From NCBI GenBank assembly GCA_021825445.1, contig JAKAHA010000004.1, positions 1 through 64,000 of the forward strand: DNA of 64,000 nucleotides. Reading direction: 5' to 3'. The translations under genes were made by a program, and so were the position numbers. This DNA comes from a bacterium. Lineage in GTDB: Bacteria; Patescibacteriota; Microgenomatia; UBA1406; GWC2-37-13. Of the stretch, positions 54,893 to 55,848 are shown one piece after another. Positions within the stretch are counted from its first letter, which is position 1. Each line of letters opens with the position of its first letter. The notes under the pieces are model-generated. The model searched no databases. It saw nothing but the letters and a program-made list of their open reading frames with translations, and was not told the origin of the DNA.

Positions 54893-54989
54893 TTGTTTAC
54901 AAGTTTATTATAATACTTAATAATCATTCGTCAACCCTAAAATAAATTTCCTCACCATTTATTCGTGATATAATTTGCTATCAAATATT

Positions 54990-55105
54990 GGAGAAGTCGC
55001 CTAGCTGGTTTATGGCGCAGACCTGGAAAGTCTGTATGGGTGAAAACTCATCGCGAGTTCGGCGCGTCATACGACACGCCGCCCTATCGAATAATAGGGC
55101 GAATC
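54990..55105 (+). pseudogene. Broken tRNA-Ser copy interrupted by two adjacent hairpins
   Basis: 54990-55060 matches the intact tRNA-Ser at 55380 from the first acceptor base through TTC of the T loop, with changes only in the variable-arm loop. Then 40 bases are inserted (55061-55100): GGCGCGTC-ATAC-GACACGCC and GCCCTAT-CGAATA-ATAGGGC, each 20 nt. The T-loop sequence resumes as GAATC (55101-55105) and then diverges, so the 3' acceptor strand is lost. A TATAAT box lies upstream, so a truncated RNA may still be made. Confidence 0.85.
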
Positions 55106-55115
55106 AAATTTTAAT

Positions 55116-55394
55116 ATGTACTACGTATATTTCTTGCTTCTTTCAAATAAACATTTTTATACTGGATTTACTTCAGATTTAAAAGTAAGATTTTTAGAAC
55201 ATCAATTAGGAAAAGTAAAATCTACAAAATCATTTATACCATTACGCTTAGTTGGTTATGAAAGCTATATTAAAAAATCTGACGCACTGCGCAGAGAAAA
55301 ATTTTTAAAAACCACGGAGGGAAAGCGGCTATTTAGACAGCAATATCGTGATATAATTCTAGAATCCAGTACTTGTAATGGAGAAGTCGCCTAG
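55116..55394 (+). CDS. GIY-YIG nuclease family protein ending inside tRNA-Ser
   Basis: A 92-residue GIY-YIG protein: YYVYFLLLSN and FYTGFT stand for the GIY and YIG strands, the catalytic Arg is in DLKVRFLEH and the metal-binding Glu in LRREKFLK. It lies between the broken and the intact tRNA-Ser. The last five residues (NGEVA region) and the stop are encoded by the first 15 bases of the intact tRNA gene, so its tail is a run-on and the tRNA promoter lies within its coding region. Confidence 0.85.
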   Translation: MYYVYFLLLSNKHFYTGFTSDLKVRFLEHQLGKVKSTKSFIPLRLVGYESYIKKSDALRREKFLKTTEGKRLFRQQYRDIILESSTCNGEVA

Positions 55395-55467
55395 CTGGTT
55401 TATGGCGCAGACCTGGAAAGTCTGTATGGGCGCAAGCTCATCGCGAGTTCGAATCTCGCCTTCTCCG
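55380..55467 (+). tRNA. tRNA-Ser (anticodon GGA)
   Basis: An 88-nt class II tRNA: acceptor GGAGAAG/CTTCTCC, D stem GCC/GGC, anticodon stem CAGAC/GTCTG with loop CTGGAAA (GGA), long variable arm TGGGC-GCAA-GCTCA, T arm GCGAG-TTCGAAT-CTCGC, discriminator G. No CCA is encoded. TATAAT about 30 bases upstream resembles that of the broken copy. Confidence 0.96.
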
Positions 55468-55468
55468 C

Positions 55469-55536
55469 CTTCGTCTCGACGAAGCCCCGATGAAATCGGG
55501 GCGAAGTCGGAATTCATTGCTAATATTCGTCGAGAC
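55469..55536. repeat. Adjacent hairpins immediately downstream of tRNA-Ser
   Basis: CTTCGTC-TC-GACGAAG (55469-55484) abuts GCCCCGAT-GAA-ATCGGGGC (55484-55502). GTCTCGACGAA at 55473-55483 recurs inverted at 55526-55536, so the whole block is a nested inverted repeat. The region up to 55600 has more GACGAAG-type arms. Confidence 0.8.
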
Positions 55537-55611
55537 TTCGGTGAGACACTGTCCGCTTTCAGATAGACGAAGCACGAAGTGTGAAGTCGCTTTTCTTGAT
55601 AATATTATATT

Positions 55612-55848
55612 ATGTTCTACGTTTACGTTCTTCTTTGTAAAGATGACAAAACCTATTTAGGATGTTGTGATAATCTCAAAGAAAGGATAATCAGGCATGA
55701 AAAGGGGAATGTCCCCGCAACCAAAGATAGATTACCAATAAAACTCATTTCCTACTTCGCATTTTCCAACAAATACACTGCTTTTAACTTTGAAAAATAT
55801 CTCAAATCCGGTTCAGGAAGAGCTTTCATGAAGAAACATTTATTTTGA
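55612..55848 (+). CDS. GIY-YIG nuclease family protein
   Basis: A 78-residue GIY-YIG protein: MFYVYVLLCK and TYLGCC strands, Arg in NLKERIIRHEKG, a PATKDRLP loop and the metal-binding Glu in FNFEKYLKSGSGRAF. It is a different sequence from the 55116 protein, so the two are not a simple duplication. It follows the tRNA-Ser and its hairpin block. Small free-standing members may act in DNA repair or as mobile nucleases. Confidence 0.87.
   Translation: MFYVYVLLCKDDKTYLGCCDNLKERIIRHEKGNVPATKDRLPIKLISYFAFSNKYTAFNFEKYLKSGSGRAFMKKHLF

Follow-up and report, generated by a model that had tools for sequence, protein, structure and literature searches.

The interrupted tRNA-Ser gene described here was likely produced by a small selfish element that homes into tRNA genes, leaves the resident copy split and carries its own rescue tRNA. 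This reading is drawn from sequence comparisons made in and around a 64,000-nucleotide stretch of DNA, referred to below as the window; the evidence is comparative, and the genomes are metagenome-derived. With somewhat less assurance, such elements may be taken as a bacterial 'home-and-rescue' class, in which a mini-nuclease would destroy an essential tRNA gene, the element would seal the cut and supply a replacement tRNA, and the hosts would be driven to exchange tRNAs across phyla. The features of the window locus are as follows.

54,900-54,989, no strand assigned: upstream flank, common to genus-mate G015 (locus L030)
54,990-55,061, plus strand: 5' part (positions 1-72) of a tRNA-Ser(GGA) copy, ending in the T loop at TTCG
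55,062-55,079, plus strand: hairpin 1, 18 nt, GCGC-GTCATACGAC-ACGC, with one C.A mismatch and the apical motif GTCATNCGAC
55,080-55,081, plus strand: inter-hairpin CG
55,082-55,099, plus strand: hairpin 2, 18 nt, CCCT-ATCGAATAAT-AGGG
55,100-55,105, plus strand: CGAATC, a CG repeat with which the T loop resumes, after which tRNA similarity is lost
55,116-55,394, plus strand: ORF A, a small GIY-YIG nuclease of 92 aa (Pfam PF01541, E 4.4e-11)
55,380-55,469, plus strand: intact tRNA-Ser(GGA), the proposed rescue copy (ARAGORN; Rfam, 55.1 bits)
55,470-55,611, plus strand: hairpin-rich leader between the intact tRNA and ORF B
55,612-55,848, plus strand: ORF B, a second small GIY-YIG ORF of 78 aa, downstream of the intact tRNA

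The tRNA-Ser locus of the window

The preliminary description of this DNA reported a tRNA-Ser copy that is continuous to the TTC of its T loop, is followed by 40 nt forming two abutting hairpins and then resumes with GAATC, and both the sequence and its predicted fold bear this out. Up to the T loop, the broken copy shows a few differences from the intact one, in the variable arm. The TTC occupies 55,058-55,060 and the last CG of TTCG 55,060-55,061, and the insertion can be read either as TTC, 40 nt and GAATC (55,101-55,105) or as TTCG, an 18-nt hairpin, CG, an 18-nt hairpin and CGAATC. The two registers are equally readable because of the CG repeats; the CG-flanked 18-nt register is the version conserved in relatives. 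The apical motif of hairpin 2 is the reverse complement of that of hairpin 1 (RTCGNATRAY).

The 40-nt insert folds (DNA minimum free energy) into two abutting hairpins at -11.6 kcal/mol, with z = -3.6; only 1 of 200 shuffles folds as stably, and the insert is among the top six 40-nt stretches of the 64-kb window in stability. Loosely defined pairs of abutting hairpins number 101 in this AT-rich window, against 66-103 in shuffles; such pairs are common by chance, so the presence of two hairpins per se means little. The weight of the case lies in the stability, in the exact T-loop place and in the same motif at the same place in other genomes. The interrupted copy is truncated after the insert, and no intron family was found in the window at Rfam gathering scores; the locus is not a group I intron or intein, which are self-splicing and leave the host gene functional.

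The preliminary description regarded the inserted element as a twin hairpin. The hairpins stand, and the insertion extends beyond them, with a GIY-YIG nuclease gene following before the intact tRNA is reached. ORF A, which lies between the broken and the intact tRNA-Ser, starts ten bases past GAATC, and its stop codon TAG falls within the intact tRNA-Ser gene. The two window ORFs score 43.4 and 40.4 bits against PF01541 (cut-off 22.6), which places both proteins in the GIY-YIG nuclease superfamily. ORF A has the catalytic residues Y5, Y15-x-G17, R25 and E61, which are invariant in six family members. By sequence, the nearest solved structures are small GIY-YIG proteins of the UPF0213 / SLX1 kind (PDB 1zg2, 1ywl, 7wme), which are uncharacterised or structure-specific repair nucleases and are not known as mobile. 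No match to PHROG families was obtained for the two window proteins. ORF B is also present in G015 and is therefore older than the insertion. The segment 55,470-55,848 has what is termed here the type-B layout, consisting of an intact tRNA, a hairpin-rich leader and a GIY-YIG protein ending in ...KYLKSGSGRAFMKKHLF. This layout is common after tRNA-Ser in the family, and the tRNA 3' fragment is usually not visible in it.

Comparison with empty sites, which had been suggested as a check, was possible in a genus-mate. The same upstream flank is found in G015 (L030), where it is followed directly by a single intact tRNA-Ser and nuclease B, and to judge from this arrangement L030 is the empty site of the window insertion. 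The intact tRNA-Ser(GGA) of the window is 70-72% identical to those of three genus-mates and 91-96% identical to those of G035, G025 and G026, which belong to three other genera. With its foreign-like identity, and with no other GGA tRNA-Ser found in the assembly, this tRNA was most likely exchanged. The displaced 3' half of the resident tRNA is not recognisable at the window locus; both tRNA-Ser copies there are of the same foreign type, and of the interrupted gene only the 5' part can be recognised. Either an earlier exchange may have preceded the broken copy, or the flank may have decayed. As no resident 3' half can be recognised in the window, the full split-and-rescue picture rests on other loci. 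At the best-resolved of these, the broken halves are the resident and the intact tRNA is the newcomer, and 'duplicated tRNA', the term used in the preliminary description, is not the best one.

Recurrence of the layout and the twin-hairpin family

For a survey of loci, 215 distinct small GIY-YIG ORFs were gathered. A protein-only search in the same family, unbiased as to tRNA neighbourhood, gave 113 ORFs, of which 55 have a tRNA on the same strand within 200 nt and one stands beside an opposite-strand tRNA; when only matches in named GTDB contigs are counted, 37 of 83 are near a same-strand tRNA and none is near an opposite-strand one. About 1% would be expected by chance, as estimated from 46 tRNAs in the 1.02-Mb draft genome to which the window (contig C14) belongs. 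Nineteen tRNA isotypes are involved in the linkage. In 55 testable cases with an intact tRNA downstream, the stretch preceding the nuclease gene was aligned with that tRNA, and loci of other isotypes served as controls. In 36 of the 55, a broken 5' copy of the same tRNA scored above the 99% control quantile, and in 44 above the 95% quantile; the layout looked for in related genomes, a tRNA fragment with adjacent hairpins, recurs. Most breaks are in the D, anticodon or T loop, and where an insert is resolved the tRNA usually continues with the next base; at L167 and L159, hairpins occupy all three regions of one broken tRNA.

Several further loci beside small GIY-YIG genes are present in the genome of the window itself. 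A tRNA-Met carries a hairpin insert between GGTA and GAGC of the D loop, a tRNA-Lys has two hairpins in the D loop, and a tRNA-Gly has a hairpin in place of the anticodon arm. The mirror form also occurs, with an intact tRNA-Glu, a nuclease and an interrupted 3' piece of tRNA-Glu. From these comparisons, the element family appears to be widespread, mainly in Patescibacteria.

Additional layouts were seen during the survey. GIY-YIG genes lie directly after tRNA-Phe at L072, L083 and L120, where a second tRNA-Phe copy or fragment has a similar hairpin (e.g. TCCTCCGAATCGGAGGA) replacing the anticodon arm. At L004 (G000:C9:41633-44854), a small GIY-YIG gene away from any tRNA has inverted palindromes TGTCATTCCCG...CGGGAATC on both sides, as if another hairpin class accompanied it. 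In records of other phyla, GIY-YIG genes stand beside tRNAs at L163 (Kiritimatiellae), L164 (Lentisphaerae), L165 (Planctomycetota), L168 (Cloacimonadota) and L184 (Nitrospirae), several of them also with tRNA fragments and hairpins.

The twin hairpins themselves form a family with the motif S1-GTCATNCGAC-S1' + S2-GTCGNATGAC-S2', in which the two loops are mutually reverse-complementary; the whole amounts to two inverted copies of one motif, TCATNCGA and TCGNATGA. The outer stem bases vary yet pair, with 95.5% of cells paired against 79.6% when shuffled and 25 compensatory cells against 7.6, in an alignment that was chosen by motif and hairpin shape and so favours pairing, a bias that called for an independent test. 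When 373 genomes of the class were scanned with a strict pattern, three places were returned, all adjoining an intact tRNA and with T-loop sequence around the hairpins. A covariance model was then built from the hairpins alone, with no tRNA sequence. When searched against 72 genomes of the family and 380 of the phylum, it found 46 places, 41 of them outside the training set; the match in the window (55,062-55,099, E 2.7e-9) is itself a training sequence. With the T loop defined as TTCR before and CRANYC after the twin hairpin, it flanks both sides at 19 of the 41 new places, against 6 of 16,819 random positions. This excludes a chance match of GAATC, a doubt raised in the preliminary description, and the precise T-loop insertion proposed there is strongly supported, since the twin hairpin recurs at an identical T-loop position in independent genomes.

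Twin hairpins were also found in anticodon loops (L256, L257) and D loops (L249, L263, L269). Taken over all sites, twin hairpins number 1-5 places per genome, mostly in tRNA loops; the single-hairpin and D-loop classes differ in sequence. Many T-loop twin hairpins have no nuclease nearby. This nuclease-free form consists of an intact tRNA, a 10-60 nt spacer, GTTCG, the twin hairpin and a displaced tRNA 3' half.

A few places depart from these patterns. In G627, a twin hairpin (L278:1001-1038) lies inside the RNase P RNA gene (RF00010, 116.9 bits), and neither a duplication of that gene nor a nuclease was found near it. A 39-nt twin hairpin in G579 (L281:1001-1039) lies in frame within a long ORF of a proline-rich protein, resembling Rickettsia palindromic elements. 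At L277, L254:2526 and L283, the T loop has TTCA; CA stands on either side of the twin hairpin and its reverse complement TG at the join, in place of CG throughout. This replacement of CG...CG...CG by CA...TG...CA beside TTCA T loops rests on about two genomes and is treated as a hint, not as a claim. The strict twin pattern gave four matches in viral contigs, all without a tRNA and read as chance; with these matches all tRNA-free and no PHROG match, a phage origin was rejected.

The travelling unit and its proposed movement

The limits of the unit are best seen by comparing L053 (G021) with L054 (G083), which have hairpins, nuclease and tRNA-Ser(CGA) in common. Their identity starts exactly at the junction of TTTCG and the hairpins in the anticodon loop and ends at the T-loop junction GAATCC. 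The tRNA-Ser(CGA) is 100% identical between them, and the nuclease shows a dN of 0.063 and a dS of 0.73 (dN/dS about 0.09) and is under purifying selection. The flanks of L053 belong to a different tRNA-Ser, with the 5' half GGAGAGG...TTTCG and the 3' half GAATCCCACCCTCTCCGC pairing as one acceptor stem. The breakpoints and the resident flanks together make the travelling unit the hairpins, the nuclease and a complete tRNA, inside a split resident tRNA. Similarly, a foreign tRNA-Ser(CGA) lies between GGAGAGGTCGCA and CGACTCCCACCCTCTCCGCC at L266. This locus, L248 and L267 each have a displaced 3' half with an acceptor-pairing 5' remnant upstream of the intact tRNA, and L275 has a weak acceptor-pairing remnant of 8 nt; elsewhere, the displaced half is a match to the intact tRNA or a 5' remnant was not found. 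As in freestanding homing endonuclease genes, the nuclease gene appears to sit in its own interrupted target, resident tRNA halves flanking the element at the best loci, and a genus-mate has an empty site, L030.

In the proposed mechanism, the GIY-YIG nuclease would cut the tRNA gene in a palindromic loop, which in the clade of the window would be the T loop TT-CG-AA, with a 2-nt CG stagger. Such a 2-nt stagger is known for I-TevI and Eco29kI, and the CG repeats around the hairpins are consistent with it. Homing repair of the break from the donor copy would leave the resident tRNA gene split around the element, and the covarying twin hairpin, filling the cut site in the split copy, would block re-cutting. 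Since the cell cannot do without the tRNA, the element would carry a complete one of the same kind, which would take over and rescue the cell. An intact tRNA that retained the site could be cut again, which could produce arrays. G023 has a tandem array of 13 identical 357-bp units across a contig break (L044, G023:C2:1-6000, and L045), such as a retained target would allow. Each unit consists of a tRNA-Ser(TGA) 5' part, a twin hairpin in the anticodon loop and a GIY-YIG gene, and the array ends in an intact tRNA-Ser on the neighbouring contig.

Some observations sit less easily with this mechanism. The intact tRNA of the window still carries TTCGAATC and so should be cuttable, which conflicts with the model unless the nuclease reads more than the loop. 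At 5'-type loci, tRNA sequence continues for a few bases past the hairpins before it is lost, a pattern suggestive of at least two steps. There are also the many twin hairpins without a nearby nuclease and the few outside tRNA genes, in RNase P RNA and in a protein-coding ORF.

A nuclease tree (49 sequences, 86 columns, few forks resolved) was compared with the loop in which each insertion lies. The loop label needs 12 changes, against 18.8 when shuffled, and none of 200 shuffles was as low. For the anticodon-loop label, which is scattered over the tree, 50 of 500 shuffles were as low, and clear clustering is confined to the T- and D-loop groups. Saccharimonadota, Giovannoniibacteriota and Kueneniibacteriota are all found on the T-loop branch, with Lentisphaerota in a neighbouring row; this mix points to transfer between phyla.

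Known systems and alternative explanations

The statement in the preliminary description that no element of this form has been described proved too strong, as parts of the design are also found in mitochondrial double-hairpin elements, REPINs and fungal mobile endonuclease ORFs. Fungal mitochondrial mORFs, known from Allomyces atp6 and Glomus atp6/atp9/cox2/nad3, place an endonuclease ORF in a gene together with a foreign replacement part and displace the native part (PMC3630166), and they are the best match in logic to the tRNA-loop elements. Foreign replacement and a displaced native part can likewise be recognised, on sequence grounds, at L053/L054, L266, L248 and L267. The mORFs replace 3' ends of mitochondrial protein genes, whereas the bacterial elements target a tRNA loop, can carry a whole tRNA and have twin hairpins marking the junction. 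SegB, one of the freestanding GIY-YIG homing endonucleases of T4-like phages, is intron-free and tRNA-linked and can drive tandem amplification of a tRNA-nuclease segment (PMC13096335), which is a precedent for array formation. It is a phage protein beside tRNA clusters, whereas the genes here are chromosomal, with a tRNA split at a defined loop, hairpins and a rescue tRNA. In CPR rRNA genes, GIY-YIG-encoding insertions not within introns have been reported, and most insertions of all kinds are at stem-loops (PMC11270868). They share GIY-YIG genes, RNA-gene targets and the host group with the tRNA elements; the targets are rRNAs, no rescue copy or twin hairpin was seen in that paper, and its main text says nothing of tRNA.

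Other explanations of the same loci were weighed. An unlikely one, though the strongest of them, is that the twin hairpin is itself mobile, as a REPIN-like miniature element transposed into tRNA loops by the GIY-YIG protein or another enzyme, with tRNA duplication or replacement as a by-product of repair. REPINs are pairs of inverted short palindromic motifs associated with RAYT tyrosine transposases and present in hundreds of copies in extragenic DNA (PMC3116915). The inverted doublet TCATNCGA / TCGNATGA resembles a REP doublet, with loops that are reverse complements and stems that covary; the CG on both sides looks like a 2-nt target duplication, and nuclease-free twin hairpins occur at many places, besides the RNase P RNA and ORF cases. 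Small mitochondrial elements of two adjacent hairpins (double-hairpin or repetitive hairpin-forming elements) are apparently mobile as well (Paquin et al., 2000, as cited in PMC2800124), and those of Allomyces are described there as lacking flanking duplications. These are organellar; here the commonest site is a tRNA loop, CG repeats flank the hairpins and a nuclease gene is linked. The REPIN-like reading does not agree with the low copy number, the preference for tRNA loops over dispersed extragenic sites or the GIY-YIG linkage in place of RAYT, no tyrosine (HUH) transposase having been recognised at twin-hairpin loci, and it leaves the joint travel of nuclease and complete replacement tRNA unexplained.

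It is improbable that the broken tRNA serves as a regulatory leader, a tRNA-like structure with hairpins that controls how the GIY-YIG gene and the tRNA after it are expressed or processed. The broken tRNA does directly precede the ORF on the same strand, and the tRNA promoter would drive its transcription; the hairpins have covarying stems and occupy loops where a tRNA fold tolerates them. Such a role does not account for 3'-type loci, where the broken piece is downstream of the tRNA and often without an ORF, for fragment lengths of about 10 to 72 nt, or for L053 and L054, whose fragments differ between the genomes while the remainder is common to both.

Still less probable is integration into a tRNA gene by an integrase that restores the gene. 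Integrase islands are classically recognised by their tRNA target, by direct repeats of part of the tRNA and by an intact gene that has been restored, and partial tRNA repeats are present at these loci. The unit is only about 390 bp, however, with a GIY-YIG nuclease as its sole coding content; differences between the rescue tRNA and the resident halves can extend over the entire tRNA, and the crossover site is replaced by hairpins.

Ordinary duplication and decay of a tRNA gene beside an unrelated nuclease, with hairpins that are chance or a terminator, is hardly credible: tRNA duplication is common, as are loosely defined abutting hairpins by chance, but there are dozens of independent cases in many isotypes, at exact loop positions and with the same hairpin motif, the strand bias is near-total (1 opposite against 55), breakpoints are seen across genomes and no T run follows the hairpins. 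The motif, its site and its covariation are not common by chance, and a terminator or chance hairpins were rejected.

Homing into tRNA loops with a carried rescue tRNA is the preferred reading. No description of bacterial GIY-YIG genes linked to split tRNA genes was found in the open-access literature, and within that literature the combination of tRNA loop, GIY-YIG nuclease, twin hairpins and rescue tRNA appears not to have been described. If the reading is true, selfish elements of less than 400 bp horizontally replace tRNA genes of Patescibacteria and some other phyla. This would bear on tRNA phylogenies, on tRNA annotation, where broken copies and missed loci are concerned, and on the evolution of streamlined genomes. 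It would also provide a natural bacterial counterpart of designed home-and-rescue drives, built around a nuclease of under 100 residues.
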